From Hygrocybe punicea (Eukaryota; Basidiomycota; Agaricomycetes; Agaricales; Hygrophoraceae), in NCBI GenBank assembly GCA_963556145.1, contig OY744471.1:4767590-4831589 (forward strand): a DNA stretch of 64,000 nt. The letters run 5' to 3'. This document shows, in pieces, positions 11,424-57,697 of the stretch (position 1 is the stretch's first letter; each line of letters opens with the position of its first letter). The translations under genes and the position numbers were made by a program. The notes under the pieces are model-generated. The model did no database searches. It saw only the letters and a list, made by a program, of their open reading frames with translations, and was not told where the DNA came from.

Positions 11424-11455
11424 CTAGTGGGGTGTGGGCCATTGCTTTGCATGGC
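11424..11455 (-). other. Helitron 3' terminus with hairpin, element I
   Basis: On the minus strand the element ends in CTAG, the canonical CTRR. Ten bases upstream is a hairpin with GCCAT (11438-11442) pairing with ATGGC (11451-11455), plus an inner GC pair around a TTT loop. The next base outside is T. Element II has the same arrangement. Confidence 0.75.
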
Positions 11456-13224
11456 ATATTACTCGTCCCTCCTTTTTTTAGCAGGAGAACAAATATTAAG
11501 ATTGAGCATATATAAACAGTACAGCATTATTACCATTACATGACAATAAATTAATATTTGAAAAGTTATCTATATCACCTTCATTAATGCAAATTGATCC
11601 GGTTGATATACCATCATGAAACCATACCATACTGTTGATGAATATGCGGGCAGTAAAATGTGCATCACCAAAGTACACAATTCCTCTCAATGTGTAAGCA
11701 GTGGATATGTCATCTATTGACAAGTTTATAACTTGACTAATTATTAAATTCTCAATAGAGTCAACTGTAAACATGATTAGAGGTGGAATTTTGTTAAATG
11801 CAATAAATTTAGTAATCTCTCCCCAACACAATTGACATTTGTGCCGTTGTCTATTAACTATGATTTGAGCAAGACATGTTGAGATGGTTCCAGAAAATGA
11901 ATATGAACAATGAAAGATGGCATCACATCTATCATTTTCCAGAATGGTTATGTTTTCACAATTCATACATTTAAGACAAGTTGAAGTCATTGGTTCATTT
12001 GCTTTCATTATATAATGGGCCAAATCACTTATGGCAATGCCAACTTGACCATAAGGAAATATTTCGGGTTTATCTTGATGCAATAAATGTCTGATTGTAT
12101 TTCTAACTGTTTCTAAATCTGTTGTGTGATTCTTGGATCGTTTGAATCCTAAGCTCAAAATCTTTAATATTTCATTGATGCTATTGAATCTTTTTTTCCA
12201 ACTTGATGGATCTTCATTCCATATTGCTAGTAATATTGTAAAGAGTGAATCATAAGCACAGCTCCAATCTTGCGCATCCCATATAAACCCTTTTGGTTCA
12301 TTTAATTCAATAGTACTTGTTTTTCGTCTTTTTTTCACAATGGAAGATGAACTTACAACTTGTTGTAATTTTCGTTTTTTATTTTGCAATACATTGGCTG
12401 TGGAATTTTTATGAGTGACAGTGATTGGAACAGTTCCTTTTGCAGGAACAAAGTTGAGGTTTCTGAAATCTGCCTTTTGATTTTTGTTCATAGGTTTAAT
12501 TAATTGCCATGGAGAGGGCTGTGTTGTGTATTGATTTAGTTGCTCTGTGGCTTTCCATGCAATAGCATGATGAATGTTTTTTGGAATATATGACTTTCCT
12601 TTCCATTTTCTAAATTGATCAATGATAGAATTTCACTGATCTCCCTTGACATGGTCTGGTAAGAGTCCTTGATATTTCAGTTTGGTAATCTCATCAAGCA
12701 GTTCTAATTCTCTGAATTCTTGCCTGAGATATCCAGAAGCACCACCTGTAATTACTTTAGGATCAAAGCCTTGCATGATGATAGTTCCTGCTGCAGAAGC
12801 ACTTCTTGATAAGCAAGTATAATAGGATTGGTGGTTTCTACAACTACTGAGGTCAACTACATTGTTAGGACGAGTACGTCCTTGACATGCATAATCAGTC
12901 ATTGCAAAATTAGGCAGTACCAACACTTGTTCTCTTGACAAAGATATCACATCATTCGGTAATGAGCACATGGTGGACGTGACATGTTTTGTAATCGGAA
13001 CCACATTTTCAGGAAGTCCTTCTATGTTAATTTTTTTTGGAGGATTCAATAATCTGACAAATAAAGTGTCCAGTACAGTTTGTTGCTCAGGACCTATTGC
13101 ACTCTGCCAACCCACAACTATGCCCTCTGCTCCTTTGGTAATGCAGCACTCCATTGCATCATTGTTTCTCAGCATCACTGGCATGCCTACACATAAGTCC
13201 AATCTTCCTGGTATATGATCAGAG

Positions 13225-14481
13225 TAGTGATGGGGAAGTTCGGTTCGGTCCGGTTTTCGGCCTTTTTGCCCCAAACCGAAACCGAACGGTTCGGTTCCTA
13301 CCAAAAAATCCCAAACCGAAACCGAAACCGACGTAAACGGTTTACGTCGGTTTGGTTTTGGTCCAGACGCAGTCTGAACCGCGAACCGCGTGGGCTGAGG
13401 GCCCTCCCTCCCATCTGACCTCGCAAGAGCGCTGCACACGTCAATCGACGTGGCTAGCCTCATTACGAGGTGGGATTGGGGGTTGGTGGGCTGCACGGCC
13501 CTGTCCTAGCGAAACACACGCGTCGAACGCGTGTGTTCCGCCTCAGCTGTTGTCGATTGGGTGTGGTGGTGGTGGTGGTGATGCCCCGACGCGTCAGACG
13601 CGTTGTGCACGCGACGACGGGTGTGTTGGCCCCGCGTTGGTCCTGCGTTGGTTGTTTTTGGCGAGCGCGTGGTGGTGGCGTACGGGCCTCTCCGCGTGGG
13701 TGTCCCGACGCGTCATGCGTGTTGTACACGCGCGGCGGGCGGGTTGACCCCGCGTTGGCCGCATTGGTGTTGCATGGTGGTGGTGGTGGTGGTGGTGGTG
13801 TTGCATGGTGGTGGTGGTGTTGTGCCGCGTTCCGTTATATACAAATAAAATCAATAAAAGAAAGAATAAAAATAACATACCACGAAGGAGCGGGGGTGGA
13901 TGCACCACCCCCCGCTGCTCGACAACTGCCACTCCACCCCGTTCACGTTCGTTTGCGTGCGCGCGCGTTGGAGGCGTTGGCGTGTCCGGTGCGGCGTTGA
14001 TCGCTGCTGTCGTGGTTGTGGCCATCATGGTGGCAGTCGCTGTCGTTGCCGTCGTGGTGGTGGTGATGGTGATGGTGGTGATGGTGGTGATGGTGGTGAT
14101 GGTGGTGTGCGTCAACCTGTAATGTGTCAATGCGTTAGTTAAGTTCGAATAAATATAAATAAAAAACATACGAGGGCGGCAGGGAGTACCCCACCACCCG
14201 TTTTGTCGACCTCGGGTGCTCCATCGTCCTCGTTTGGCGTACATCGGGGGTGTTGTTGGTGGGGGTTGGTGAATTTGGGTGACTTTCGAAGTCAGCCAAG
14301 TACTGTCAGTTTGCGGTTCAAACTCAGTTTGAAACCGTTTCGGCCCGCGGCCAAATCTCCAAACCGGAGACCGAACCGTTCGGTCTCAGCCGAAATTTCC
14401 CAAACCGAAACCGAAACCGGCGGTTTCGGTTCGGTCTAAACCGGGTTTGGGTCGGTCTGAGACCGAACTTCCCCAACACTA
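13225..14481. mobile_element. Non-autonomous hAT element 1 (8-bp TSD GATCAGAG)
   Basis: The 1257-bp insertion has inverted ends TAGTGATGGGGAAG and CTTCCCCAACACTA. It is flanked by GATCAGAG on both sides (13217-13224 and 14482-14489). Element II shows the empty site with one copy of the octamer. An 8-bp duplication and TAG...CTA ends are typical of hAT transposition. The interior is GC-rich with GGT/ATGGTGGTG microsatellites and no transposase; long open frames in it are low-complexity artefacts. Confidence 0.93.
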
Positions 14482-15936
14482 GATCAGAGGATGATGCATG
14501 TGGTTGGCTCCAAAGTAGCTTTCGGAGTGAGGGTTCCAATATCTTTGTGTGTCAAATAGGATCCAAAATTGTTGACATGTGATGAGATTTTCTTTTGCTA
14601 TTGGAACTAGTAGGATCATTCCATCTGTCTATGGAATAGAATGATGTTAATGGTCTCCTATTTTCAGCAGCAAAACGTTGAATACCAAGTTCATTGATTT
14701 TGTCTTTTTGTGCATTCAATGCAGTTATAACTGACACATTCCTGAATTTCTTTTGGGCTAATTTTGGATCATTTGGACCTTTTCCTGCAATGCGAGTACA
14801 AAGAAATGCAATATCTTTGGGAGTACATGCTTTGTATCTCATGTTTTCCAAAGCAAGCCTCAGTTGGACATCTTCTTCTGACTGATTGGTTTGTCTCATA
14901 TTTTCACGTAATATAACAACTGTTGTTATTTGATGCCAAAGAGCTTTGCCTATAGCCGCTTCCTGATTTGCTATAGTTTGACTGGAATTGATTTGGACAC
15001 CAACGGTTCCAGAGTATAAAGGAGCACCACTCATAGCTGGTGGAAGTTGGCCAAAATCTCCTGCAAATATCATATTAATGCCACCAAAGGGTTCATCATA
15101 AACACCACGTGCTTTTGCACACTGAGCACTGATTTTATACATATCTCTGCAAGATAACATTGACACCTCATCAATGAAAATGTAATCCACACCATCAAGA
15201 TTGGCACAGACTTGTGCAAGGGAACGAGATGATCCTCCCTGATTAATTCCAAGAATGGAGTGATATGTGGATCCATTTACAAGGGCAGCAGCACCACCGG
15301 TTGGTGCAAGAACCACAAATCGATGATTTTCGTTGTGTTTACCAAAAAAACTAGTCAATGCTTTGATGACTTGTGATTTCCCTGTGCCTGCCATTCCACC
15401 AAGATACATGCGTAGCTTATCAGAACTATTAATCAACGTAGAGTGATTGGCAATGATATGAAATGCTCTCTTTTGGTCAGTGTTCAACTTGTAATCATTG
15501 ATAGTTATATCAATAAGATGACGATCAGCTCTGTTTGCAGGAATAAACATATGGTTGATGTATGCTGCATCCACTATCTTGACATCATTATATTGAAAAT
15601 TTGCCAATTTATCTATGGTTGCTGTGTTTGTTGGTAAATTTTTATTTCTGTCATCGATGATTTCTTTTTTCTTTGCAAGGACTGCAGCTCTCCAAAATTT
15701 TGCTGATTGTACTACAGGTGGTTCTATAGGTATCAAAGGTCCTATATCTGGGGTACCATCAATACAATCATCGAGCCATCCTGACCTTTTCAAAGTTCTT
15801 TCAGCTATTAGCATTTGATCTTTCCTCTTTTGTCCTTTTTGACCAAGTTTCAGGAGTATTTCTGTGTCATTATTGTCTTCATCAATGTTGTTGTTGAAGT
15901 CGTCGCCGTTAAATGCAAATTCAGCATTGTGCATGT

Positions 15937-17233
15937 TAGTGTTGGGGAAGTTCGGTTTGGTCCGGTTTGGGGCCTTTTTGCCCAAACCAGAAACCGAATG
16001 GTCCGGTTTTCCACCCAAAGTCCCCAAACCAGACCGAAACCGATGCAAACGGTTTGCATCGGTTCGGTTTCGGTCCAAACGCGGTCTGAACCGCGGACCG
16101 CTAGTGCTCAGTGCCCCTGCACCATTCTGACCTCGCAACAGTGCTGCGCACGTCAATTGACGTGGCCAGCCTGTTTGCGAGGTGAGATTGGGGTGCTGGG
16201 GTGCTGGCACACCCTGCACCGGCATTGAGCCGCACGCGGGCTTCTCCATGGGTGTCCCGACGCGTCACACGCGTTGTACATGCGATGTGGGTTGACCGCG
16301 TTGGCCGTTTTCGGTGGACGCGTGATGGTGGTGGTGGTGGTGGTGGTGGTGGTGCCCCACGCGTCATACGCGTTGTGCACGCGATGACGGCTGGGCCGCT
16401 TTGGTTGTTTTCGGCGGACGCGTGGTGGTGGTGGCATAGGAGCCTCTTCGCGAGGGTGTCCGGACGCGTCATACGCGTTGTACACACGACGATGGCCGGG
16501 TTGACCCCGCATTGGCCTTCCTCGGTGGTGTTAGTGTTGCGTGGTGGTGGTGGTACGGTGCCGCGTTCTATAATGGACGAATAAATCAGTGAAAAAATGA
16601 ATAAAGGTACATACCACGAAGGAGTGGGGTGGATGCACCACCCCTGCTGCTCTTCCACCTTGTTGACTCCACCCCATTCACGTACGTTTGGCGCGCGTTT
16701 TGAACGCGTTTGGCGTGGCGCTGGGGGTAGGCTGTGGGCGTTGCTGTGGGCGCGTCCGGCGTGGCGTTGACGGTGGTTGTAACCGTCGCCATTGTCGTTG
16801 CCGTTGTCGTGGTCGTTGTCGTGGTGGTGGTGGTGGTGGTGGCCGTGGTGCATCAACCTGTAATTTGTAAATGCGTTAGTTAAGTTCGAATAAATAAAAA
16901 TAAAAAACATACGCGGGCGGCAGGGAGTACCCCGCCGCCCGTTTTGTCAACCTCGGGTGCTCCATCGTCTTCGTTTGGCGTATATCGGGGGTGTTGTTGG
17001 TGGGGTTGGTGACTTTGGGTGACTTTCAAAGTCAGCCATGTAGCCGACTTTGGACTGTCGGTTTGCGGTTCAAACTGAGTTTGAAACCGTTTTGGCCCGC
17101 GGCCAAATCTCCAAACCGGAGACTGAACGGTTCGGTCTCAGCCGAAATTTCCCAAACCGAAACCGAAACCGGCGGTTTCGGTTCGGTCTAAACCGGGTTT
17201 GGGTCGGTCTGAGACCGAACTTCCCCAACACTA
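15937..17233. mobile_element. Non-autonomous hAT element 2 (8-bp TSD GTGCATGT)
   Basis: The 1297-bp insertion has ends TAGTGTTGGGGAAG and CTTCCCCAACACTA. It is flanked by GTGCATGT on both sides (15929-15936 and 17234-17241). The uninterrupted site is present in element II. The interior is a diverged version of hAT element 1, including repeated ACGCGTCA-ACGCGTTG words and GGT microsatellites. It encodes no transposase. Confidence 0.93.
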
Positions 17234-20200
17234 GTGCATGTCATCCAGTTCATCAAGACCGTTTGAGGTCGCCCATGAATACCTTATATATGCAGTATTA
17301 TTCTTCTGACGTTTAGCAGAGAAATCATCTCTTGCATCCAAACAGTCATACCACAGACCAAAGTATTTCATGATCTCGAGCTCTCTTTTAGAAAACTCAT
17401 GGTCTACAAAAGCATTATCCCATGTTTGTAATTTACATTTGAGTTCTTTGCCACTTCTCCATGGCTTGAAAAACATTAACATTGTACAACAATAATATTC
17501 TCGATCACCACGGTCAGCCCTTGGCAAAGTGTTCGGAATAAAATTAGGAACTATGAAAGGATCATTCCCTTTCATTTTGGCATGGTGGGTAAGATATTGT
17601 GGATGATTGGGATGTAAAGTATAATCATTTTCAAATTTTGTCAATTTATTAAGATCAACTTCATTTGTTTTATCAACTATTTCTGTGCCTGCATGTCTAT
17701 TCAAACTATCAGGTTTTGGAATTTCATCTATCTCCATGAGTATATCATTATCAACGACATCAGACAAGTTGTCATCACTGGAATAGTCAACATTAGTAGG
17801 TTCAGTGCAAGAGTCAGACAAATCATCACAGCCTAGATTGTCAAAAATTTGGTTTTGCACTGGTTCTTTTCTGGCCCTTTTGGTCTTTGTTTTGGTGCGT
17901 CTTTTCTTTGGTTCCATAGTGGCAAGACGTATCCAGTCATACAGTGATACATTATCATACAAGGCGGGTCTGAACATATAATTATTTACTTTGGAAAGTC
18001 CAATGTATGCGCCATTATTCTTACCAATAACAACCTTTTGTGCATTATTTTGGTCTTCACATATATTAGGAATTTCTTCATCAGACCATGCACTGATAAC
18101 CTCTTTAACATAAGATCTCCAAAAGAATGGCACGAATTTATGACTGGTGTAGTGATCAGGATTTCCAAGGACATATAATGAAGCCATTGGAGCACCAATT
18201 TCCATTTTGGAGGTGAGTGAATTGACTATTTGTGTAAACAGCTTTCTGACTTTGTCTTTTCTTTTCAGGTCGCCACCAATCATTTCGGAATTCTTATCAA
18301 AAATACTTTTTATCACTTCAAAAATGCTATAGGTCTTCAAGGAGAATTTTGTAATATAATCTGTTATGTATGCAACTATGGCCTTTATAGCAGTACCTGA
18401 TAATAAGCTGGTCACATCAGAATTGCATTGTAGCATATATGTAACTTCAGGTGTCACCGTGTTCATCCAAGGTTCACCATGCTTGAGGTTGAGAGCACCA
18501 GTGTTAGGTTCTACAAAGGTTTGTTGAAAGATATCACGGGGAAATCGTCGTTTACATTCACCTTTCGAATTAAGACAATATGGCTTTTTTTTGCCATCAT
18601 GCCTGTTATGTACATTTAATCGCAATAAAAGATCATCTACAACATCTTGAAACCTTTGCCACCATGTTGATCTTTTGTTGTGATATTGACAATTCATGGA
18701 ACAATTATATGATGGTGGATCTGGCATGACACATGTTGGTTGTTGATATTCAGGTTTCGACATTGTCTGTTCCATTTTCTGTGATACCTCATCTTTAGAA
18801 CCTGTCATGAATTGTCTTACACACAAACTTTCCAAATATTCCACCAATCTTTTCTGAAAGTCAGAATTTTCACCCATAATTTTGTCACGTATTTCCTGAG
18901 GTGTAAGGCATCCCTTTATCCACAACAGCATATGAAGATGCAAGGTAAGACGTCCTTGTTCCTCTACCATTGCATAATAACCTGATGTGTTTCCATACAG
19001 GCCAGGATGAGATTCATTTATTCCTAATATATGTTTGATGAACATTTCAGTAGTAAAGTGAAAGAAGTGGGCTCCAGCAACTGGATTGTTTGCAATTAGT
19101 TTGTAACAATCCTGGGGTAGACGTAGTTTAGGATAAAACTTTTCTTTGTTGTCAGCATAATATAAGCATAGTGGGTGATTGATGTCTGCAGGTGCAAAAG
19201 TGATAAACCAAGTCGGAGCACCAATATAGGATATCAGAGACCAAATCTCATTTCGCATGTATTTCTTGTTAGTAATTGAACCTTTGACCTGACCAGCTAC
19301 GTGATCCAGATCAGAAATGAGTTTATAGCATGCTTTCTCTTCCAATGTATCTGGTTTGACTCTATCACCTCTAGATAATCTCTTAGAGAGGTCATCCAAA
19401 ACAGCTGTATTGATATTCATCAGGCGATCTGCAATATCGTTGAAATTATGTTTATTAGTCAACAAATATCCTCTGGTTGTACTGTCCTTGATTTGTTCTT
19501 GATTGAATGCAATCAATGGAAAATAGGGATCGGTTTGAAATCTTTTGTCATGGTACATCAGGAGATGTCTTTTGTGCATCATATCACTGATGCTTAAAAC
19601 ATCATTGTCTATGCTGCTAATACCACCCAAGCCATATGGAAATAGGCAGGGAAACATCATAGGATATAACTGAGGATTATTAAAGAACGATTCTGGATTT
19701 CTAGCATGGCTTATGGCAAGAACACCACCATGGTCATCTATCAAGTGCTTGGTGGCTCTAGCTATTAATGCTTTTGGACTTGTAATATCTAGATCTTCGC
19801 CAGTTACACCACTAACAACAAAGGGACAAGGCCCATCTTCAACACCATCTTCCTCTTCATTGTCAAATGCACTAGTGGCTCCCGGTTCCTTATTTGTGTC
19901 TGCTGGTCGATATGCAACCACAACAGGAATTCCATGATCTGGATATTGTGCTAGATTTTCATAGGAGATATCTAAATCATAGTAATCCATGTGATTCAAT
20001 TTCAGCCATTCTAAAGCTGCTGAAACTCGCCTTCGGCGAACCAATAAAGGCATTCGCTCCATGTCTTCTGGAGTTGGTCTGGCAGGACCAGTGAAAATAA
20101 AGGCTAGCACTTCATATCAAGTTCTTTAATTGTTGGAGGCAACCGTTGATATATCTTTGGTGTTGGGTTTTGAAACATGATGGCATTTGCTTTCATTTCA

Positions 20201-21801
20201 TGCATCCCAGAGGAGACACGAACAATACATTTGTTGTGACGAACACGGGCAATCAAAAGTTGTTCAGCAAATGTTAGATTTTGAAGTTGTGCAGGAATTC
20301 TTCCCATCCAAAGTCCATTTGCCAAAGCTTATTTGGGAGTTTGGCCTTTATTCAGACTGAGCACACATGGTTTGCATATCCATTTACATGTGTCATCTAG
20401 CACTGGACCTTTGATATCCTCTATTGGATCAGAACAATGATATCATTCACATCTTGTGATTCCCATATTGTTTCTAGTTAAGATTTTCAGATTAACCTTC
20501 ATCTTTGACAATAAAGACATGTTCTTCAACGCAACCAATTGACCACATACAGCACACCCACTTTCTTGGAAACATTCGGGTGATGTATCTCTGCACCAGT
20601 TGCTGATTATGGTTTCCTTCAATTCAATAGATGGTGGACGAGGAGGAAATAATTGCTCATCTGACTTGTCCAATTCTTCTTTCATTTTAGTCTGAGTTTC
20701 TTCTTTTCCGCACTCATATGTTTCTGTCATTTGTTGTCTTTTGTACCACTCTTTACACTTATCTTTATTTGATTTAATATCATGCACATGAAAAATAGAA
20801 ACATGAGTATCACAAGCTGAACAATGATGCCTCATTAATGCCACAGATAGATCTTGTCCATGTAATCTTCATAATGTCTTTGACAAATATATACCATGTA
20901 TTGTTGTTATTTCACCAATATCCTTCACTGTCAAATTTGGCAGAAGTTCATGTAAAGACATTTTAACACATGCATAATTTTTTCTATCTTCATATAAAGT
21001 GTTGGCAGTTTGTTCATCAATATGCCCCACATATTCGAATAATATGTCAGAATCATGGTTGATATTATTAGACGGTAGCATGAAAGATTGAATAAAGCTA
21101 AACTTGAATGTTGGTATTCGTTTACCACCACCAATGTAGTCATATCTATGAACGGAATTTATATATAAAGATTTAAACAAGTTTCTGAATAAATTCAAAT
21201 TGAACATAATTATGTTTGAACGGCTATGCCGTATTATGAAACATATTGTGGTCCACAGCAACGTTGCATGTGATAGAGAACTAGTAATACAATGAAACAA
21301 ATATGATCTGAAATCATGTCGTCTCAATAGCGATTGCATTAGCAATGCATTGATCATTTTACAACGACATTGAACAGTGATAGGTTTGAGAAGACAATAC
21401 AAAGCGAAGAGATATTTAGGAGGTAAGAAATATGTTCTGTCATATTGAACAGAACGTAATTGCATTTTGAACGCGCTATTTTTAAATGTAGTCCAAATGA
21501 ATAATGGATCGACCGTCAAGTTATCTTTTGTTATTTCAATGAACTTTACACATTGTGTTGCATTTATTTGCATCAATATTGTTGCATCGCCCTGATCTGG
21601 GGCAAACTCATGTTCTATGAGTTTTCTTTGAAAAACACCCAATTCTTGGGTCAATGCCGATATCAAAGGAGCGGATATTGGTTCAAGAGAGATATACATA
21701 AGTTGGTCTTGGCATAGTTGTGGAAATATGGTTGCGTTTGCAAGGAAATGTAGATAAGTCAATACCGCAATGCAGACATGCATGATATCGTGGAGATTCA
21801 T

Positions 21802-22750
21802 GTGGATTGGTGATAGTAAGAGAAAGCACCGCCCATGTATCTATTTAACTAGTTAAGTGGTTCGGATCATGAACAACAATTAACACAATTGGATTGATCA
21901 TATGACATTATCTTATTTGTAAGCTCTTCCAAAAACATCATAAGGTGTGCCTGAAGCTTTATAATGTTTTTATTCAATTGAATGTTTTCGTAACATACGT
22001 AATATTCTGGTACTGAATAGTCATAGCTTTCCTTGGAGTGATGGTTATGCTTGCCACCATATGAGGGGGATTTGTTACAGTTGTCACAGGGGATGGATGA
22101 GGAATTTACCATCAAATAATATTGAGATCTCCACTCAATTATTTTTGTTGTTATCATAAGTCCGAAAACGTTGTAAAAAGTGGATAACGTTATGTTTTCG
22201 ACATTTTCGGACTTATGATAGCAACAAAATAATTGAGTGGAGATCTCAATATTATTTGATGGCAAAAATTCCTCATCCGTCTCCTATGTGTCTCCCCATT
22301 TAATTGGTCCATAAAGTTGGCAGTTCTGGTTTATTACATATATTCAATTTGAATGTTCATTAACTCGAGTCATAGTAATCCAAGGTTGTCCTTCTCATGT
22401 TACCTTCTCATGTTACCTGTGGTGGCTGTACTGACAAACGTGAACTGAAATTAATACACTTAATTTAGGCAAACAGGTTTTCAGTCACCAAGATCGATGT
22501 CTTATGTGATATCTGTGTATACTTATTATCTTACTCAATTGTTATGGTCATAGGAAAGTAACACAAGCCATTTTCAATAGAGCAAAAAAAGAAATGTACA
22601 GATATTGTACAAATGTAAAGAATGGCGGTAGAGGAGGACGTTGAGGGCACAGATTACCAACAGATTACCAGAAATCAATGACTGAGATAAAAGTGTCTTT
22701 AGTCAAATATAATTAATACTCCACAAAAAGAGGACTTACAGCAACCGAAA
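21802..22750. other. Spacer between Rep-helicase and cargo 1, element I
   Basis: The sequence aligns discontinuously with 46017-47104 of element II (for example ATTTAAT-GGTCCATAAAGTT). This carries homology from the Helitron gene straight into the cargo. It contains the foldback at 22085-22287. No gene is recognised. Confidence 0.5.
22085..22287. mobile_element. Short foldback/MITE, about 200 bp
   Basis: Left arm GATGAGGAATTT...CATAAGTCCGAAAA (about 22095-22175) and right arm TTTTCGGACTTATGA...AAATTCCTCATC (about 22203-22276) are near-perfect inverted repeats with a short loop. Element II lacks it at the equivalent place, so it inserted after the copies separated. Exact ends and target duplication are unclear. 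Confidence 0.7.
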
Positions 22751-24665: not shown

Positions 24666-25557
24666 GGTAGCTGTAGTAGAATCTTTGTGGTGGGCGTCTG
24701 AGGGAAAAAACGAGGGGAACGGAAAACGTTGGATGTCAGGGTCGATGCCCTAGCCTATGAAGCAACTGGCCAGGTCAGATGACCTGTCAACAACACATGT
24801 TCGGCATTGTATACATTGATCGGACACGCGGTGTACAAATAACATACAACCAAACAGATGCTGAAGTTGTGCCGTAATACATCCTTAAAATGTCAATAAG
24901 CGCTATTTGTCATGTAGCTATACAAATATATATTGTTAACTTTTGACACGTTGAAGAGATCGAACATGCTTGATGTTAATATACATAATGGTATGGTCAT
25001 TAACATAGACAATGGATTATCGAATGCTTGTCGAACACTCGTCGAACAGGCCGAACAGTGTTCGAAAAGTGTTCGACAAGTCAATGCTACGTCAATAAAT
25101 CAAGTGGAATATATATTAACGTAGCAATGACTTGTCGAACACTTGTCAAACAGGCCGAACACTGTTCGACAAGAGTTCGACAAGCCATACGGACATTGAT
25201 TAACGCATCAAGATGCATATGACTAACCGAACACTTGCCGAACAGTGTTCGGCCTGTTTGACACATGTTCGGCAGGTCGTTACATTGTTATTCATTCTAA
25301 AGACAAATATGGGTGCACAACCAACCCCTTGCCGATCCAACCGGGGGAGCATCATTGTTGCCGTTGTCACCTGACACGAATCTGATATCATTGATAGTCA
25401 AAATGATTATCCAAACTTGATTAACTCTTCTTCTCCTTCACACTCACCATCTCACAACACATCCCGAGTTATAGAACACATACCGGTATATCACAGTACC
25501 ATTCTGAACCCCGTTGAATTTACAAACTAACATAATCTGATCTGTTAGACCTTCAAT
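24666..25557. promoter_or_regulatory. Divergent spacer cargo 1/cargo 2 with GAACA/TGTTC palindromes, element I
   Basis: At least three palindromic clusters of the form CGAACA...TGTTCG lie at about 25030-25080, 25135-25185 and 25225-25275. They are built from CTTGTCGAACA, GGCCGAACA and their complements. A divergent promoter is expected here. Similar but not identical repeats occupy the same spacer in element II. No gene is seen. Confidence 0.45.
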
Positions 25558-38233: not shown

Positions 38234-38270
38234 ATGTTACTCGTCCCTTCTTTTAGCAAGAGAACACATA

Positions 38271-46016: not shown

Positions 46017-47104
46017 GAGGATTTGTGACAGTAAGAGGAAACACCGCCCATTTAACTAGTCAAGTGGTTCGGATCATGAATAACAATTAACACAATGGGA
46101 TTGATCATATGACATTATATTATTTGTAAGCTTTTCCCAAAACACCATAAGGCGTGCCTGAATCTTTAGAAATCTGTGTTTACTTTTTTTATTCCATTCT
46201 ATGTTCCTGTGACATGCCTTGATACAGGCCAAAAATGCATCTGTATCATGAATAGCTGCCTTACGATCTTATTAGGGGTCTGGCTGACAAGACATTGATC
46301 AAACCGACTGAGAAGAACAATGGTACCCCCTTTTAAGATATTTTGTGGATTTAATCTTCAGAGTCTCAGTGATATTTATTTCTGGCTTGCTCAACAGACA
46401 AAACAGGTATTGAAGTTGAACAACCAGGCTGTTTGACAACTGTGCATATTTGACAATTGCTTGGTAATTCATGGAAATTATCATTGTTCTTCATCCTTGT
46501 CAGAAATACATTGTCATTTTTATGGAGCTGTACGTATCATTCCCACACAAGTATACTGTATTATTCTGGTACCAAAGAGTCATAGCTCCCCTTGGAGTGA
46601 CAGTTATATCTTCCACTACAAGAGGGGGTTTTGTTACTCTTGTATCATTGTATCCTCATTTAATAGGTCCATAAAGTTCGTGATTCTGGTTTCTTACATA
46701 TATTCAATTTGAATTTTCATTAGCCCGAATGAGAGTCATCTCAGGTTGTCCTTCTCAAGTTGAGTGTGTAGGTGGTTGTACAACTGAACTGAAAGTAATG
46801 CATTCACCAGGATATATTTTAGACAAACAGATTTTCAGTCAACAAGATTGATGCCTTATGCTGTATCTATGCTCACTATCATGCTCAATTCTTATGGTCA
46901 TAGGACAGTAACACAAACCATTTTTAACGGAGCAAAAATAAATACATATATAGAAACTGTACAAATGTTAATAGTAGCGATGTATGAGGAGGACATTTGA
47001 GGGCACAGATTGTCACCAAGTTTCCAGAAATCAACGACTGGGATACAGTTTTTTTAGTCAAATATAATGAATACTCCACAAAAGAAGGACTTACTCCTCC
47101 AAAA
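46017..47104. other. Spacer between Rep-helicase and cargo 1, element II
   Basis: No gene is seen. Several blocks match 21802-22750 of element I, but about 350 bases around 46170-46550 are unrelated, so one copy has an insertion or replacement. It probably contains the Rep-helicase promoter next to 46016. Confidence 0.45.
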
Positions 47105-49028
47105 TTAAGGCCCGGGATCAAGTTTGGATGTCGATGGCTTGGGAGATGAAGGCCTCGTTTGGCTTGGAGTAATGGAGAGTAGGATTTCGGGTGGAACGAT
47201 GTTGCTCCAATCCACATCCATTGATGAAGCGCTGGGCTCTGCAGGGGTCGATGACTGGTGGCGTGACGATGCACGCGTATTGGGACGGAATCCTAGGACA
47301 TGGAGAAGATCAGAATTGGAATATATACAGCCTATGATGTAATGTTGAAATACATACCCGGAGTCGGAGACTTCTTCGGTGGCTTCACCAGGTTGAGTTT
47401 CTCTACGATAATGCCCGCTTGCTCCGAAGCAACATCCAATTTCCTCCTCTTTGCCATCTCGCCATCCTCGTGACCATCGCTGGGAGACATCTTTTCAGGT
47501 TCGGGAGATCCGTCATCGTTGTCCATGGTTATATCATTATCAACATCCAACAACCCCGCCCACTCTGGTCCTAAAATGTCCAACTTCGCGGATTCCGGTG
47601 CCACAACATCCGGCTCGGGGGCGATGGGTGGCTTAATCTCCATTGTCAATTTCTCCGATGCCGATTGCCGGGTTGTGCGCGACGACCCAATTTCAACAGC
47701 GACTGCGAGATGTCAGTGCATTAATCATAACAAGGTGAGCAACGTACGCATTTGGGCCTTAGACCGCTTCTTCTTTACCGGGGCTACGTCCTCCTCCATC
47801 TTTATGTCGTCTATACATGAATAAATGTGTTGGATCATCGTTTTGATATTCGGAATTCAATAACTCACCCTCATCGTCGTCCTCGGCTTTGGACTTGATT
47901 GTGCGCTCTGTCATGATGAAGGGTTTGCATGTATGACAATCACAGACAATGAAAGTACTTACTGGACTTGGGCTTGGGCTTGGGCTTCTTTTTGTCCTTC
48001 TCGGACGAATTGTCTGCGCCACCTGAATATTCAATAGATCTATACACCACTATGGTTGAAAATTTGTACAAACCAGCAGAAGATGCCTTCTGTTTTTTGA
48101 CCGATTTTGACTTGGCTTTGCCCTTGCCCTTGCCCTGGGCAACTGGCTCCTCTGCAAATGTACTATATCATTAGCACAATCACACATGTAATTCTAGATC
48201 ACACCTTCATCATCATCTGCCACATCAGAATCGACGAGGACACTATGTCCTTTACACCAAGCAATAACATGACCGATGATCTCGAGCTTTGTGGCATCCA
48301 GAAGCCCACCGAATGACCAATTTGCCAAGGTTCCGCTGTGCCATGCTGGCACGGATTCGTCGTATTTTGCCCAATCTATGATGCCAGACGTGAGAATTCA
48401 TTTGGCCATAAATACATATATACTTACCTAGATCCTCGGGCTTGATCTCGGTGTTCACAGCGCCATGTTGAATCAAAGCCGATGGAGAATGTTTCCCAAC
48501 ATAAAATTCTTTCAGGAGCCAATCATCGAAGATCTTGCTTCGCCAGTCACGGGTAACCTCGTTTGCCCGTTTCGCCACCAAGACTTCTGCCCAAATTTCG
48601 TCCATGACGGTGTCGGTATACTTGAGGTAATCCCGAAGTGAATCGGTCCCTTCCTTATCATTTTCGACGTAGTCCGGCGAGTAGTTGGGTGCCTTGTTGT
48701 ATGCGATGGCTGCTGTCGCGTAGATGTACATATCCATTTGATAAATCAAGCGACGGAGCGGTTCCTCGTATCGTTCGGGGATTTCGCGCCATAACTCACC
48801 TCGGGCGGTGGCATCGTGGGGGTGTGTCTTCAGTACATAGAGATTACGAGAAAATACGGGAATGGTGCCGGATTCCTTGTTGGGTGCCGGAATCTTGGGC
48901 GGGACCATGTACTGGATTTGGAAGATGCGATGTAGCTCCTGCAGCTTTTTGGGCGGCGCATCAGGCCAGTACTTGAAGGCGGCGGGATTGACAGCGGGAG
49001 TTGAGGTTTTGACGACTGGCAAGGACAT
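47105..49028 (-). pseudogene. Cargo protein 1, element II copy, frameshifted
   Basis: ATG at 49026-49028 (MSLPVVKTS); stop TAA at 47105-47107. The first 200 or so residues are very similar to the element I copy. Near 48400 the sequence is 2 bases shorter than element I between the PEDLG and SGIIDWAK codons. The frame shifts there and runs to a stop at 48252. Downstream exons (Lys/Pro-rich run, acidic parts, AKRRKLD) persist in the other frame. An alternative splice (GTAAGT at the shift point) could rescue the frame, but I see no good acceptor. The function of the family is unknown. Confidence 0.6.
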
Positions 49029-49870
49029 GGTAGATGAAATAAAAGTTTTTTGGTCGACGTGTGAGGCGATTTGAGAGCAAAAGAAAAGGGCGGATTTATT
49101 ACTCAACGCTCCAGACTATGAATACAGATGTCACGACCACGTGACCAGATCAATCGCCACATGTTCGACCTCATGTTCGGCTTCTTTGCATGCATAAACA
49201 ACAGATCTATTTATTTATGTTTTTGATGTGGCTCGAGCTTAGAAGTTGTCCAAAGCTAGTAATTGCACGCAGAAAACCGACATGTGCAGCGTATGGAATA
49301 TTTTTCAGTTGGTAAGGCAATAAATCGAGTTAATTCGTTCGATGAATATTCACGGACTGGTCCGTTGACGGAAAAGCACAACAAGTCTGACTTGTTGGAT
49401 GGATGTAGAAGGCCTAGATATACTACAACAAACATGTTGTTGGGTGTGTTCGGTCACCGGACATGTTTGGTGGATGTCAATGTACGACTAGATATACTAC
49501 ACCGAACACACCGAACATGTTCGATGTGTTCGGTGTGGTATATCCGGTCACAACCGTTGGTTGACATCCACCGAACATCTCCACCGAACACACCGAACAC
49601 GTCCGATCTGTTCGGTGGATATTGCTCTTTCAAGACATTTAAATGATTACATTGCTGATCAACGTGTTTGGCACGTGTTCGTTGTTTTATCATTGCCACT
49701 CTTGTCAGGTGACATAATTCCGACGTCTTATAATTAGAAGGTTTGTGGAATCGTCACCACCCGCTATCAACCACCCTGAAAGTAATCAATCATTAAGGTA
49801 TTGATGTATTAATGATATCTGTGTCTGTTCCTCATACCATCCATCCGAAATCCTGCCTAGGTCCACAAAC
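49029..49870. promoter_or_regulatory. Divergent spacer cargo 1/cargo 2 with CCGAACA/TGTTCGG palindromes, element II
   Basis: Between about 49440 and 49620 there are many CACCGAACA words and their complement TGTTCGGTG, arranged as inverted pairs (for example CCGAACATGTTCGATGTG). Element I has related repeats at the same place, but with CTTGTCGAACA flanks. No gene is seen. Confidence 0.45.
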
Positions 49871-51693
49871 ATGCCATATAAGAAGGAACTTGGTTATGAA
49901 CTTTGCATGCACATCTGCCCTGGTCGAAAATGCGACTCTCCAAAAACGAAATGTCTTTTGTGGAAGAAGGAAGGCAACTCCTGCCAAAGACATGTCGGAT
50001 CCGCACACCAACATCCCAAATGCGTTTCGTCTGGAATTTGTCCGCAGTCGGTATGTCTTGGTCGCAACATACGTGAAAATTCGCAGGGTGTCCGCAATGC
50101 GACGGCCGCGGAACTCGATCTCCTTCCACGCAAAAGGCTATCATCCGACTCTGAGATGGAAACATCATCTGACTGTGAAACGGAACCGCCAACCACCGTA
50201 AGCAACAATGAACGCCGTATAACCACATTAAGCAACAATGATGGCCGTGTTTTCAAAATCCTTTTTATCCTTGACCCAACAACTCGTATCGCGAGCAAAG
50301 CCGCAGCCATTAACGATCTTGCATTCGTCACCACGACCATATCCGACATCGAACTCGATACCATTGCCCATCTTGATGGTTACGTCCATATCATCAAGTC
50401 ATACAAGAGTCGCTATTCAGCATGTATTCAAGAATGGGTAATGTCTATTGTTTAATTTGTGGATTGTTGATACTGAAACGTATTTCACAACAAACAGGTT
50501 TATATCGGAATGCGACTACATCATGAGGATGGAGCCCGGCGCTTCAATGTCAAATACATATTTTGGCCTGAGTTCCTTCATGCAATACTTCGCCATCAAG
50601 ACAAAGGCGATACGTGGCAAAAGTTCGCATCGGCAGATTGTGTATTTGGTGGTGTGGATATGGGAATGTCATACATGTAAGATTGACATCGCTTTAATTA
50701 ATTCTGCTCCGTTTTCGCTGCATTATACTGATGTCTTGACAGCGGTAACCAATACGGATTGACACTGGAAAATGTGTCGATTTTCATGACTGGCATGGAC
50801 GAACTCTGTCGAACGGCACACATCTGGCCGCCTCCGAAGCAGATGAACACAGTCCATTCAAAATGGATACAAAATCAAAACTTGCTTCATGTCGCTTTGA
50901 ATGTAACGCATACGATACGCCCTCAAGCAAAATTATTAAATGATGGCGACCAATTCCCACCAAATATTGTCTTGAAACGGACACACAGCGACACCGGTCA
51001 TCACGTCCTATTACCTGGCGACGCCAAGCGAAATTGGGAATACATGCGCAATAACTGTGAGGTTCCAGGTTCACGTTGGTTTGGGCAAACGTACATCGAA
51101 CCACTGAGTAAGATGGGCGAATGGCGTGTGTTTCTAGTTGGTGGAAAGGTCGTGTATACAGTGCACACCCTGTACAACAAGGAAAGCAAGTCCTGGAAGT
51201 GGGATATCGTCTCAAGTTTCTATACCTTGGATGTGTTAAGGTGAGTGCCCTTCATTTTCACTTGTCATTTCATATGTATGATTGTCTTAACTTTGTCAGA
51301 ATATTTCAAACGCAGGGGACTCTATTGAAGACGGTGGCGTGCAATCCGGACAGGGGCGCCATTTCTATTCGAGAGCAAGGCAGAAACGAGTTCTTCGACT
51401 TTGTCCAAAAGACCTATGAAGGGCTTTATGCGATAGAGTCCAATATGGTTGGTGGAAAACCATCGATGAGTGTTTTTTGCCGTATGGACATATCGCTCAT
51501 TGTGGATTCCAAAACGGATACTGTGTCCTATTTCGTGAACGAGGTGGAACGTTATCACACATGCAGCCTCTGGTCGAACATGAAGTCAGGTCCGAAATCC
51601 GTTCGAGCACCCATTGGCTCATTAGCAGACACTTTTGCAGGGGTTTTCTATAAATGGTTGATTGACATCAAAGGTCCATACTCATATTTGTAA
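49871..51693 (+). CDS. Cargo protein 2, ATP-grasp-like, intact copy (element II)
   Basis: ATG 49871, stop 51691-51693. Three introns lie near 50440-50497, 50677-50741 and 51241-51298. The N-terminal Cys/His-rich segment keeps every Cys of the element I copy (C-x3-C-x4-C; C-x2-H; C-x4-C-x4-C). A variable acidic linker follows, then ILDPTTRIASKAA. The ATP-grasp-like core has NIVLKRTHSDTGHHV, EWRVFLVGG and FCRMDISLIVD...YFVNEVER. In ATP-grasp enzymes such residues bind ATP and Mg and join a carboxylate to an amine, thiol or similar group; the substrate here is unknown. The C-terminus adds about 40 residues ending PYSYL. Identity to the element I protein is about 70% by eye. It is divergent from cargo 1 and converges on cargo 3 with an 87-bp gap. 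Confidence 0.7.
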
Positions 51694-51780
51694 TATTATC
51701 TGTACAGTCAATGGATCGGTTCGCGTTTATTTCACAAAACAGACATAAGATACAAATATAAATGATGCTAAGTGGAGCAA

Positions 51781-53828
51781 TCATTTCGGCACTCCCAAGA
51801 CCATGACCCATTGCACATTGAGTGAAATGCTCTTCATCATGTCATCTACACGCTTGAATGTATTGATGGTGTGTCCAACAACGACACAGGATCCTGCAGG
51901 GATATTGTGCGGGAAGATGGGTAGTTGCTGGAGCGATATGAGAGTGGACGTGAAGTCCGCTTTGACTTTGCGTGCATCATAGATGGGCACTGACAACACA
52001 TACTTAAGATATCAATTTATATTAGACGACCGGATGCTTACCAATATCGTAAAATGATAGAGCGGCCTTATGATAAGATGGAGTGGGTCGACGAGTGAAT
52101 GGACTAAGTTGTACATTTTTGGATGTCGATGCCTCTATGAAAATCGATTAGGAATTACAACTAAAAATGATTAATGCACAAACTGGGAGATGTATCCATT
52201 CCACTTGCTGTGGTCGTTGAGAAGGACACATAGTCCTTATACAGTTGGGCCCGAAATTTGGACTCGCGAATCACCATTCCAATAGCACCAACATATCGCT
52301 CCCATTCCCCTTGAAGTAGTGCACCCTGTATAACCTTGACCGGCTTTGTATTGCCACCAATCTTGGGCTCATCGAGAAAGCAGGACTCCACTATGATGAC
52401 CGATGTAAAGATCGTCGGCATTCCACCTCCGACTGCATGAAAGAAGTTGCGACCAAATGCACCAGTGGAGATATGGGCAGGGTTATCACGAGAGAGATTA
52501 GAGTACCTCCCAGATCTATCAAATGTAATGGCGGAAACCAATAACCTATATTATATCCAATGAATCGACCAAATTGACCTCAAATTGCTGTTCAAATAAC
52601 GTACTTTCTGTTGATCTTGTAGATGTCAGTGATGATATCACTGAACTGTGGGTTGCCATTCCCAATTGCACTGGACCAGGATACCATTGCTGCTGCCCTG
52701 AATGGTTATGAGTAAATGACAAGGGTATAAATGCAATTGCATACTTGATATTGACACAGTCTTGGTAGGTGTCAACAAGTTGAGGATCCCTCGTGCCAAT
52801 ATCGGACTCATCAACGTTCGGAGATGGTAAGCTAGATTCACGACATCTACATCAAACACCACGGTGTAATAAGATCCAACACACCTGGTGATCTGCGTCA
52901 GTGCATAGGTCAGATCTCCTTCATCGCCACTGGAGCCTTTATCATCGTCGGTATCATCGAGCATGATGGCCTTCGTGGACTTCGACTTCTTGGATGGAGT
53001 ATTAGAAACGCTGTTACAATTAATGAATGAGAATATTCATATCGGCACGTAAAATACACACGAAATTGGCTTATCGGGGTTCTTCATCAAGGCTACATTG
53101 CGACGATGCCTAAACAGTCAAACGATTTGTTTGAACAAATGGATATGTCTATGATAACCGAACAACTCACTTAGAACCGTAATCCTCTTCCTCTTCCTCT
53201 TCCTCCTCTTCCTCACCGTCTCGTGATTGATTAGATGCAGCTTTCAATTTCTTGGTGGGGGAAGGCGTTTTACTATAGATAACCTGTCAATGATGAGACA
53301 ATACCTATGAAAAATATTTACACATTGTCGTCATTGTCGGTGACATTGGGAGATGACATTTGACGTTTCTTTCCACTGTAACAGATTGATATCATGGTGG
53401 ATATATTTGATATTGAAACACTAACACGTCTTTAACGTTGCGAAACTTGACGGAATGCCTAGGAGGATATTGATATTTGTTAACTCATATTGGATAACAA
53501 TGATATGTGATTATAGATACCTTGTGAGCGTTGACGGTGCCATTACACTGCCAGTGCTTTGAATACTGACGGCATCATCATTAGCATTGGACAAAGCCAC
53601 ACTGTCCATTGGTCAAAAATAGATAACGATTAAAACGATGACACATACATATCATCATCAGCCCAAGTCTTGATGACCTTCTTCCGCTTCTCGATTGTTG
53701 CAGAAGGCCGTCTTTAGTGCATGCAATAGAAACTTCAGTTATACCGAGTAAAATAGGGATGCATACATGGTGGCCTTGGATTTTGCTTTCGAGTTTGATT
53801 TCGTGGCGGTGGACTTCTTGGGAGGCAT
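51781..53828 (-). CDS. Cargo protein 3, element II copy (unknown function)
   Basis: ATG 53826-53828 (MPPKKSTATKSNSKAKSKAT), stop TGA 51781-51783, with many short introns. The N-terminal half is low complexity with basic runs and a long Glu run (near 53200), typical of disordered nuclear proteins. The conserved C-terminal part includes RSGRYSNLSRDNPA, GAFGRNFFHAVGGGMPTIF, CFLDEPKIGG, WERYVGAIGMV and SCVVVGHTINTFKR. No known domain is recognised. The strong match of the C-terminal part with the element I copy, against a variable N-terminus, suggests the C-terminal domain is the functional part. It is head-to-head with cargo 4 across about 660 bp. Confidence 0.6.
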
Positions 53829-54490
53829 TGGAGAGCGGTAAAAGTTGATGGAATAGTGGATATCATCTCCACTCACGCTTTAAATCACTCAAAAACAATA
53901 AGCTATGAATTTAAGATGAATCGGTGAATCCAAAACTTCAACAATAACATCAGAGGATCCACCATTGGCACATGCTCATATACCAAACGAGGCTTCTTGG
54001 GCCATGTACTCCATGCAAAGCGCAAAGGTATGCATGAAAAATGGATGACTGTCCACATGATATTCGCCACAAGTTTATACTGGTAGATTTCATGAATTGT
54101 TGACAAATTCAATTAAAGTTAGGAATGGAGACTAAACAAAAAGGGGTATTCATAAAACAAAAATGCATAATGCCAAATTAAGAAACATGGGGTATACTAA
54201 CGGATATTGATGCATAATGGATAGGGGCTAATTTTAATGCTGTGCACACATATACTGTGATGCAGAATTAATGCGGAAAAGCTGGAGTACATGCTTGACT
54301 ATACCATATCCAAACCAGACAGCTGACAACCAACATTATGTGGTGCATTTGAAAGACATGGAAAGGATCCGTATTATGCAAAATGACGCAAACTTCAATA
54401 TTGAAGAATGCAATACAAAAACAAAAGCAAAACGGATCCTGAAAGCTATCATCACATGGACATCAAAAGCCAATATGGATATGATCGGTG
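53829..54490. promoter_or_regulatory. Divergent spacer cargo 3/cargo 4, element II
   Basis: AT-rich, no gene. It should contain the promoters of the divergent pair. Only short blocks resemble the element I spacer. Confidence 0.4.
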
Positions 54491-55746
54491 ATGGCGGAAG
54501 ATATAATCCATGAAGTGGACGAAATTGTGCCACGCAATATACATCTCACCACTGCTTTGTACGTGATGGACAACTATTACAACTTCAAGGGTGCATGTTA
54601 GCAATATCCACCATATATATACTGGCTAGTATTTGACACCAAATTGACAGCTGAACATCTGCAGGAAATCATATCTGCACGCTTAGACGATGATGAAAGT
54701 CAGCTTGCGAAGGCCACAAACGTAAGTCATTGGATTTGAAAAGGTATATCATATTGACCGCATTGCCAGATTGCAAATGTCAATATTGTGCATGTTGACT
54801 CTCCAAATTGCTGGAAGTTTACACTTCCAACCAATGATGAATCCGAACATCAAGAATTGGTATTAAGTTTGCAAGCGATTTTGGTGGCGAAAGATCTTCC
54901 ACCCATAACAACCAGGTATGTGCTAAATTCGTATCAATTCCTTGAATACCATTCTGATGAATCACTGCAATAGTCAACCAGAACGCCGAACGCCCTTCAT
55001 ACGTCAAAGCATAGTCGTAACTGGCCTTGATACAACGGGCTTTCAATCCTATATCGATAACCTTCGGATTCTGCACCAGAAACTGGCTCGTCAATTTCCT
55101 GACAAAGCAATGCAAGCTTTTACGCCTTCTACATACATGGATTACATGGCACTCGCAATAGGAACCCGATATTTCACTGATCGCCGACATGACAACACTT
55201 CCTCTCACATTCCATTCGAGTATGTCATCGATCCAAAAGGCATATTAACCTCACTTGCGAATTCCCGCTACTTTCATGGCCAGGACAATTGCGTACTTTA
55301 TTACAAGTTGAAGTCTGATAGAAATCGACATTGGTGAGTGACGATGAATTGGGATCACATCCCTACTGATGGAAATATTTATTAGCTTCATTCCAACAAA
55401 CCCAACTTGCTTTAGAATCGGTGATATAGTGGAGGTTCAGTTTACAATATCGGCAGTTCCGGTAAAGAAGGATAAATTCAAGATGATTCTGAATCTACGG
55501 TCATTGGCACTAGTAGACAGTGACTTCACAGAGGTAACACTTTAATACATCAAGAATTAAACGAATACTGATGTATATTCTCAGGAAGCAACTATGATTC
55601 GCAACAAGACAGCTTTGCCTACACCAACTACACAGCCCAGAATAGCCATCAAACGGCATGTTGGGTATGTGGAAGAGGGTAATGATGCAGAGGGTGTTGT
55701 GGAAACAAGGCAACGCTTCTATAATATGAATATAGACCGATGCTAA
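54491..55746 (+). CDS. Cargo protein 4, element II copy (unknown function)
   Basis: ATG 54491 opens a frame (MAEDIIHEVDEIVPRN) that joins the segment MDNYYNFK at 54566. The stop is TAA 55744-55746. Introns of about 50-60 nt lie near 54594-54651, 54722-54772, 54916-54973, 55335-55384 and 55533-55584. Conserved parts: DSPNCWK, VLSLQAILVAKDLPPIT, ERRTPFIRQSI, GTRYFTDRRHDN, RYFHGQDN and CFRIGDIVEVQF...KFKMILNLRSLALV. The last segment alternates polar and hydrophobic residues like a beta barrel (OB-type possible). No catalytic residues are recognised. The order of exons is the same as in element I, where one intron holds a solo LTR. Confidence 0.65.
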
Positions 55747-55832
55747 TGTATAATATTGTATGTGTACTCAACCCGTTGATATGTTACAGCTGTTTTGCTA
55801 TCTGATGGCAGCAACTGCACCTTTTTGAATCG

Positions 55833-56304
55833 ATTGAGAAATTTGGACTTGGTAGAATTTTGGGTGCTGTGTTTTGTATCTCATGAAATACTATTTGGAT
55901 TAAGATGGTTATACAGGGAAGTTGTACTATGTCTTGAGGACTATCTACGCCTGTAATTACATTTGAACAATATTTAGGATATAGTGAGTTGTTGATGAAA
56001 TAAAAGGTAGACCAGTACTTTTTGACGCCCAAAATGATACTGTCAAATTATGACATCGAAAGAGCTCATATGAAGAAGACTGGAGGGAGAAGGTTGTTCA
56101 TCTTTTCAAGGCCTAGAAGTACATATACCATATTCTTCTCTATTTTTGTCCTTTGAGCCGTCATTGCATCTGTACTATGTTTGTCTGTCACTAGGCTCGA
56201 AATACAACCAGAATCATAAACTGTATAACCATCTTGATCCAAGCAGTATTTCATGAGATACAAAACACAGCACCCAAAATTCTACCAAGTCCAAATTTCT
56301 CAAT
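55833..56304. mobile_element. Foldback/MITE with about 83-bp arms
   Basis: The left arm 55833-55916 (ATTGAGAAATTTGGACTTGG ... GGTTATAC) is the near-perfect reverse complement of 56222-56304. About 300 bp lie between. No coding capacity. It is absent from the equivalent part of element I as far as I can align, so it is a later insertion. Confidence 0.75.
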
Positions 56305-57680
56305 GTGCCTTTTTGCTGAAAAGATGAGAATGAGCTATTGAAAATCCATTATCTACCTATAATCCAGATTTAATGTTTGCATATTCTCTTTGTATCACCA
56401 CTGGATAGCTAACTATATCCAATGTTCAATGTGTACTGATCACATATGACAATAGTAACCTGAACATATTGACCGAACACATTGACCGAACACACCGAAC
56501 ATGTCCAATATGTTCGGTTTGTGGTCCATGAAACTGAATTACAATTCATTGTACAAATTCAATCAAACTACCTTTACTTCGCATATGTGATGCATAACCT
56601 TTTGTTCAAAGACGTGTCATATTAACTGGACGAAATCTGCAGGTACAACAAGCATATTTACTCCTTTATATCTAAATTGATGACGAAATTCACTGCTGTA
56701 CTGAGAAGCCTATGTTGCTATGTTCCTGCATTGATACCATTGGATTGTATCTTGGCCCAACCTTCACTTCTTCCCATCCTGCCATAAATATGATGCTTTG
56801 CTATTTAATAATTGCTTTCCAATCATATTATTTTGTTCTGGCATGATTGGAGCTTCTCTTGAACTAATTATGTTCCTTGTCCTTGTGTCTGGATCTCGAA
56901 TCATTATGCAGTTGACTGCATTTATTGTACTATTTTCGTGTCCTTTGATGAAACATCAACAAATTATACACCTCACCCTTATGAGCCCATTCAATGAATA
57001 CATTGAAACAGCATCTGGGGTACCAATGTGTGAACTCCATAGTTTCTCAATGTTGATAGCTCTGCTTGCACTTTCTCTGCTTCAATATGGGATGTCAAAT
57101 ATGGCACATAATGCACATCCAACAACTGTCCAGACTTTTATTTCTGCTATTATTTGTGCAATTGCAATGCCCCGGATTCAGGTAGGGACATCTGCAAAAC
57201 ACTTTGTGCCGAAAAATGATGAACCCGCCGGTTAAACCAGTGTTAAACCTGTTCCTTGTGATTCCAATGTACATAGCTGTTATATGTATCTGTAAACAAA
57301 GATATCATATCTGGTTCATTCAGTCTATATTGCACTGGCAATTCCTCAGAATACAGCAGGGATACTAGTTGGACAATACAGAACTCTCAGTACTGTTCAG
57401 ACAGGTTTTCAACTCATCCATATGTCATAATGCACATTACACCAACAAAGAATACGATTATTGTCATGAAGTCGACTTAGCAGTGGACTACACTTTCCCA
57501 ACTTGGCACCTTTGATCTGGTGACCTTATTGTTCTTGCTCATTTGAGACAACAAATTCTCACAGTTACAAAGTCAGCAGTCACACGGTTTCAAATTTATT
57601 CACAGGGCTTCAAAATTGTTCCCACAGTTTGCAACAATTGTTCCCACGGCTTGGCAAATTAGAGTCTGACCCTGAGTTGA

Positions 57681-57697
57681 AAAATCCACCGTATAGA
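57681..57697 (-). other. Helitron 5' terminus, element II
   Basis: The minus strand begins TCTATACGGTGGATTTT. Homology with element I ends one base outside TC (a shared T), then diverges. Confidence 0.65.

Follow-up and report, generated by a model that had tools for sequence, protein, structure and literature searches.

A 19.5-kb Helitron in the Hygrocybe punicea genome with four extra genes that recur between its ends in many copies

We analyzed a 64,000-nucleotide (nt) stretch of contig OY744471.1 (hereafter, the window; forward-strand positions 4,767,590 to 4,831,589) from the 92.2 Mb, 42-contig genome of the basidiomycete Hygrocybe punicea. Self-comparison of the window reveals two related stretches on the minus strand, which we denote elements A and B. 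Element B (38202..57722, with the 5' end at 57722 and the 3' end at 38202) is a rolling-circle transposon (Helitron) of 19,521 bp, delimited by empty-site comparison, length and flanking bases, and carries four extra genes (g1 to g4) that recur between such ends in many copies. Element A (11424..35780), delimited by self-comparison and empty-site comparison, is a broken relative that lacks the 5' hairpin of B. From the 5' end, the gene order is g4 (backward), g3 (forward), g2 (backward), g1 (forward), and the Rep-helicase (forward); on the strands of the window, g1 is on the minus, g2 on the plus, g3 on the minus, and g4 on the plus strand, that is, two divergent pairs in both elements. All four genes could be modeled in A and B by translated comparison and splice modeling, with matching intron positions in the models. 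The initial annotation, which described two related Helitrons whose four shared genes agree in order and orientation, is thus borne out by the self-comparison, the Pfam domains, and the exon models. In the Rep-helicase part (11423-21964 in A against 38201-46171 in B), the elements are 97-98% identical; outside it, identity is 84% for the adjoining gene, g1, about 68-70% for the other three, and 85% over the final 200 bases on the 5' side.

The Rep-helicase of B is encoded in an open frame of 2594 codons from stop to stop (38271..46055, minus strand) that matches DUF6570, Helitron_like_N, and the PIF1 helicase in Pfam. The HUH (43134-43151), Tyr (42552-42578), and Walker A (40887-40910) motifs were located in this frame, and the hallmark of the Helitron superfamily, Rep (HUH) joined to a PIF1-type helicase within one protein, is present. 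A search of the 2594-codon frame against Pfam yielded no match to an apurinic/apyrimidinic (AP)-type endonuclease at an E value of 0.001. In the C-terminal part (38271-39053), cysteine-protease-like Cys and His boxes (39015-39053 and 38415-38444) were noticed by eye, without a Pfam match. The corresponding region of A (11496..21842, minus strand) is broken by two nested insertions and also has 5 premature stops, and indels affect 10 of its codons. Among the 150 scored genomic copies of the Rep-helicase, 35 have frames that are open over at least 2588 codons.

The extra genes of B are g1 (47943..49028, minus strand), which is spliced and has a low-complexity tail and an uncertain end; g2 (49871..51693, plus strand), with four exons; g3 (51784..53828, minus strand), multi-exon, with uncertain first exons; and g4 (54551..55737, plus strand), also multi-exon, with an uncertain start and a homolog in Pluteus cervinus. 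Their counterparts in A are g1 (23578..24665, minus), g2 (25567..27274, plus), g3 (28354..30371, minus), and g4 (31147..33987, plus), the last of which is split by an insertion resembling a solo long terminal repeat (LTR). The g1 protein of B has no Pfam match. The g2 protein combines a Cys-rich N-terminal part with a predicted ATP-grasp domain and, judging from homology, is a putative ligase of the RimK/LysX/D-Ala ligase kind that would add an amino acid or a peptide to a protein; in a Foldseek search with this model, ranks 1 to 39 are all ATP-grasp proteins. Several observations weigh against such a functional reading of the cargo. None of the Foldseek matches reaches an E value of 0.001, the three ATP-grasp families that g2 matches weakly in Pfam are all below the cut-off, and comparison of the g2 sequence with solved structures gave no ATP-grasp match. 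The g2 model itself is poor (mean predicted local distance difference test, pLDDT, of 43; predicted template modeling score, pTM, of 0.43), and its VIA Z peaks at 7.1. For g4, the structure model is unusable, and a g4 homolog yields a single weak match of the OB type (OB_MEIOB_N, E value 0.022); no profile match was detected between g3 and g4.

When joined, the flanks of B match genomic sequences across the junction in 38 of the 40 scored matches (36 over positions 1-240 and 2 over 6-240), and the remaining 2 stem from the flanks in the window itself. The joined flanks of A likewise gave 40 scored matches, 22 of which cover positions 1-240. Empty sites, proposed as a check in the initial annotation, were thus found for both elements as paralogous copies of genomic repeats, and three of these for B and four for A were read. 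In the three read for B, GTGCAAGA runs directly into TATGAATAGG; compared with these paralogous copies, B is inserted between a purine and a T, without a target-site duplication. The 3' end placed by the initial annotation at a hairpin followed by CTAG, at 38202 in B and 11424 in A, is correct, and that of B coincides exactly with the empty-site boundary. The 5' boundary of B, previously put at TCTATACGG (57689..57697, minus strand), had to be revised: because the three empty sites lack the 25 nt that precede this motif, B starts 25 nt further upstream, at 57722 instead of 57697, and TCTATACGG lies 25 nt inside the element. Element A has no 25-nt hairpin; compared with its own empty sites, it shows a surplus of 7 nt around the junction, of which about 6 follow CTAG, as judged by eye.

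The terminal 25 nt of B, TTACGAGTCCCTATAAGGGAATCGT (57698..57722, minus strand), fold as DNA into a hairpin (-7.8 kcal/mol), and the first 11 nt are a possible 5' asymmetric terminal inverted repeat. The 3' region, on the same strand, comprises the subterminal partial inverted repeat GGGACGAGTAA (38237..38247), the hairpin GCCATGCAAAGCAATGGC (38216..38233), which is located 14 nt before the 3' end, and the terminal CTAG (38202..38205). The repeat, 35 nt from the 3' end, matches the first 11 nt of the element at 9 of 11 bases, a score equaled in 20 of 2000 shuffles, or in 71 of 500 when any 11-mer was allowed.

These ends are shared by other copies in the genome. We fetched 20 copies as pairs of 5' and 3' ends, picked because of a nearby 3' end, and 19 of them have the 25 nt of B in front of TCTATACGG, three (L082, L083, and L093) deviating at one or two positions. 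The element starts with TTACGAG in B and in 19 of the 20, with the fourth base changed from C to T in two of these; in the twentieth case (L087), two elements meet head to tail. A purine precedes the 5' end in 25 of 25 cases (13 A and 12 G; these are the ends that matched the search expression among 27 loci examined, L118 being counted inside its doubled hairpin), and a T follows the 3' end in 20 of 20. Alone, TCTATACGG is a weak marker: 4 of the first 8 genome matches fetched (L001, L003, L005, and L006) are not element ends. Two loci show rearranged 5' ends. At L118 (C3:7321040-7321200), the initial 21 nt of the 5' hairpin are doubled, and at L087 (C3:7339067-7339250), two elements are joined head to tail as CTAG-TCGT-TCTATACGG, without the 21 nt that are doubled in L118. 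The breakpoint is GGGAA/TCGT at both loci, a hint that the 5' hairpin may contain a second processing point; the head-to-tail join could reflect rolling-circle replication, and insertion beside an older copy fits also.

Genome-wide searches that allowed up to 3 mismatches retrieved 281 matches to the 5'-end pattern and 343 to the 3'-end pattern, with 0 matches in the reversed-pattern controls. The first 100 exact 3' ends listed include a partner on the same strand and within 60 kb for 51 of the first 100 5' ends listed, and 29 of these 51 pairs are 18.0-21.5 kb apart, clustering near 19-20 kb; the opposite-strand control gave 9 of 100, unclustered. Many of the copies are highly identical, as would be expected if the recurrence were an artefact of assembly or segmental duplication, but the flanks beyond the 20 fetched 5' ends and the 20 fetched 3' ends differ from copy to copy, and empty sites exist, so that we regard this explanation as exceedingly improbable.

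The cargo is linked to these ends and to the Rep-helicase well beyond the window. The gene searches scored the best 150 of the 243-692 candidates per gene, so that misses partly reflect this scope, and the linkage counts refer to contigs C1 to C3, which hold 55 of the 150 scored g1 matches. Within 25 kb of these 55, on the expected side and strand, we found the Rep-helicase in 47 cases, g2 in 45, g3 in 42, g4 in 41, and TCTATACGG in 36; g2, g3, and g4 are all listed beside 37 of the 55. Within 6 kb of g4, TCTATACGG occurs in the right orientation at 38 of 53 matches and in the wrong one at 1 of 53 (mean 0.6 and maximum 5 in 500 shuffles of the sites). Mobility of the cassette together with the element, as proposed earlier, is accordingly supported by the linkage on C1 to C3, the paired ends, and the empty sites, with the qualification that cargo-less forms seem to exist. 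Indeed, a number of counts go against a strict association. At least one listed cargo gene is missing in 18 of the 55 g1 matches, and 10 of 60 Rep matches have no listed g1 within 25 kb. The initial annotation had named Rep-helicase copies that end before the cargo with a 5' terminus of their own as one refuting case, and one of these 10 (C2:2928280) is of this kind: no cargo is listed for it, and 4.8 kb upstream lies a genuine 5' end with an intact hairpin (L116), which makes it a possible cargo-less form. A genuine 5' end was also found 2.5 kb upstream of the g1 match at C2:577557 (L117). In view of the cargo-less copy, some moves may not require the four genes.

The divergence of the cargo is informative with regard to selection. 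Between A and B, dN/dS of g1 is 0.127 over 252 codons. For g2, g3, and g4, compared over 495, 294, and 236 codons, respectively, the proportion of differing silent sites (pS) is 0.74-0.81 and that of differing amino acid-changing sites (pN) is 0.16-0.20; that is, the silent sites are saturated, and the proteins still are 67-73% identical. Among eight g2 copies, pN/pS is 0.11-0.27 in 28 of 28 pairs. These figures, which are counting estimates for loci picked by score, show purifying selection on the cargo. Two caveats tell against this conclusion: the eight g2 copies represent fewer than eight lineages, as L014 and L009 closely resemble B and L011 closely resembles A, and the openness of the cargo frames is partly a matter of construction because the models were built to avoid stop codons.

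The selection estimates bear directly on the possibility that the four genes are ordinary captured host genes, which hitch-hike with the element and are amplified without serving it. Gene capture by Helitrons is known, and Castanera 2014 (PMC4289320) describes fungal elements that have captured between one and four genes; the cargo-less forms described above are compatible with dispensable passengers. Passengers, however, would decay, whereas the four genes here, modeled with matching intron positions, have been kept in two or more lineages, with saturated silent sites in g2 to g4 and low pN/pS. We therefore consider mere capture improbable.

Unlike the cargo, the Rep-helicases of A and B differ at only 4.7% of the silent sites (pS 0.047). 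Compared with the saturated silent sites of g2 to g4, this low value implies that the cargo and the engine of A and B differ in history. A further mix is seen within the cargo. Of the 50 g3 matches on C1 to C3, 25 are B-type throughout, 3 are A-type throughout, 7 form a mosaic class with a B-type g2 combined with A-type g3 and g4, one more has a B-type g2 and an A-type g3 with no g4 listed, and 14 are incomplete or of other types (two type-C labels in this typing are doubtful). The mosaic class implies that exchange happens inside the cargo too and supports the view, drawn from sequence comparison, that engine and cargo have likely been reshuffled. Gene conversion among copies, rather than module exchange, could also keep the Rep-helicases of A and B alike, and conversion among many copies would likewise yield a Rep region of 97-98% identity beside cargo of 68-70%. 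This explanation, which is compatible with the other readings discussed here, strikes us as somewhat unlikely; the mosaic class needs at least one exchange inside the cargo, for which conversion and exchange at the time of replication are inseparable here.

Element A spans 24.36 kb, or about 20.1 kb when three nested insertions are subtracted. The initial annotation had given net sizes of about 19.5 kb for B, in agreement with the 19.52 kb found here, and about 19.1 kb for A, which is lower than the value obtained here. Two of the insertions are hAT-like and lie in the Rep-helicase, at 13225..14481 with the 8-bp duplication GATCAGAG and at 15937..17233 with the 8-bp duplication GTGCATGT; they are 76% alike and have TAGTGTTGGGGAAGTTCGG-like ends. 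The third, the solo-LTR-like insertion in g4 (31524..33180), has TG..CA ends and the 5-bp duplication CATCA, identified by eye. A second solo-LTR-like copy, also with TG..CA ends and 5-bp duplications, is located at 4775-6435 and is 92% identical to the one in g4. In addition, the self-comparison shows about 0.8 kb in g2 of A (27268-28075) that B lacks. Toward the 5' end of A, there are five units of a 169-bp tandem repeat (34547-35379), for which the tandem-repeat search reported no equivalent in B, and 20-bp iteron-like repeats just inside the end (35666..35735).

Taken together, these observations lead us to propose, with a probability of roughly 0.7, that this is a four-gene element in which the genes move with the transposon and, instead of being captured fragments of the host, assist in its movement or persistence. 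If the element works as other Helitrons do, nicking by the Rep-helicase would take place at the 5' hairpin end, one strand would be displaced up to a stop at the 3' hairpin-CTAG end, and the copy would be inserted elsewhere between a purine and a T. Homology suggests that g2 would ligate an amino acid or a peptide onto a protein, and co-conservation suggests that g1, g3, and g4 would share an accessory task, for which aid to single-strand replication or transposition would be our first choice and blunting of host silencing the second. The same cargo could instead serve the host or drive host-level selection, for example as a defense, incompatibility, or toxin-like trait, with the element profiting indirectly. 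Starships, which are large fungal transposons of another kind, bear host-relevant cargo, and the ATP-grasp-like enzyme and the other cargo proteins could act on host targets. We find such a host benefit hard to favor, given that hundreds of end copies in one genome and the reassortment inside the family look like selection at the level of the element; moreover, the Pfam scans revealed no domain that points to defense or toxicity (the padloc library was not searched).

Within the four-gene, element-serving interpretation, a more specific model, which we put forward tentatively and at somewhat less than even odds, is a Helitron of two modules: a freely exchanged engine, consisting of the Rep-helicase plus the ends, and a helper module of four genes that is ancient, includes a peptide-ligase-like ATP-grasp protein, and recombines one gene at a time between lineages. 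If true, the element would represent the first case of a protein-modifying helper set belonging to a Helitron, and it would demonstrate that Helitrons are able to maintain full genes as an operon-like set. Because the family is young and present in high copy number, the need for the accessory genes, the role of the 5' hairpin, and the exchange between engine and cargo are directly testable. More generally, our observations suggest that part of the lineage-specific unknown genes in mushroom genomes may be transposon helper genes.

Extra genes in basidiomycete Helitrons have precedents. HELPO1 of Pleurotus ostreatus spans 1.5-13.7 kb and carries one to four captured genes downstream of RepHel, with capC-F in one large copy; its ends are T[C/G]...CTRR, it inserts at AT, and relatives of its capB gene in five other basidiomycetes are next to RepHel in all but one (Castanera 2014, PMC4289320). 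Like HELPO1, the element described here is a basidiomycete Helitron that combines RepHel with extra genes, up to four in HELPO1. Unlike HELPO1 as described, it is 19.5 kb long, has a 5' hairpin end, and has its extra genes, four in number and arranged as two divergent pairs, on the upstream side of RepHel.

The ends share with the Helitron superfamily the hairpin shortly before a CTRR 3' end and, in B, insertion without a target-site duplication. Two features of the canonical Helitrons (Helitron1) are missing, namely, the 5'-TC end, in place of which we find TTACGAG, and the A-T target, given that G precedes the element in 12 of 25 cases. According to Bao and Jurka 2013 (PMC3627910), the 5' inverted repeat of Helitron2 forms a hairpin, and the 3' hairpin is closely preceded by a partial inverted repeat. 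The 5'-terminal hairpin is present here as well, with the repeat 0-2 bp from the end, and the 5' hairpin layout and insertion before T are as in Helitron2 and in the Fusarium FoHeli elements (PMC5148889), as may be the 3' partial repeat. In contrast to both, the 3' end is CTAG, as in canonical Helitrons, the target is purine-T, and there are four extra genes; the element is also about 3-4 times the length of FoHeli1/2 (5-6 kb; PMC5148889). Overall, the ends resemble those of Helitron2 more than those of a canonical Helitron, with a canonical CTAG-3' end.

Other Helitrons provide parallels for accessory functions. The plant Mothra Helitrons (PMC4683698) likewise have kept a conserved extra gene over long times; theirs is RPA-like, whereas the present element carries four genes, with no firm RPA match. 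Helentrons carry OTU and tegument-like deubiquitinase domains and an AP endonuclease (PMC9741609 and PMC6431247); they resemble the present element in having an extra protease-like part at the RepHel end, here recognized from motifs by eye, and differ from it in that no endonuclease domain was found here by Pfam. The TET/JBP-carrying fungal Helitron1/2 elements (PMC12730594) also have a recurrent accessory enzyme; a TET/JBP domain is not among the Pfam matches of the frames scanned here. Among the papers listed in searches of the openly licensed PubMed Central literature, we found no Helitron with an ATP-grasp gene or with the cassette described here. Thus, cargo in fungal Helitrons is already known, and what is new here is the size of the element, the upstream cassette of two divergent pairs and its conservation, the likely module exchange, and the predicted ATP-grasp gene.

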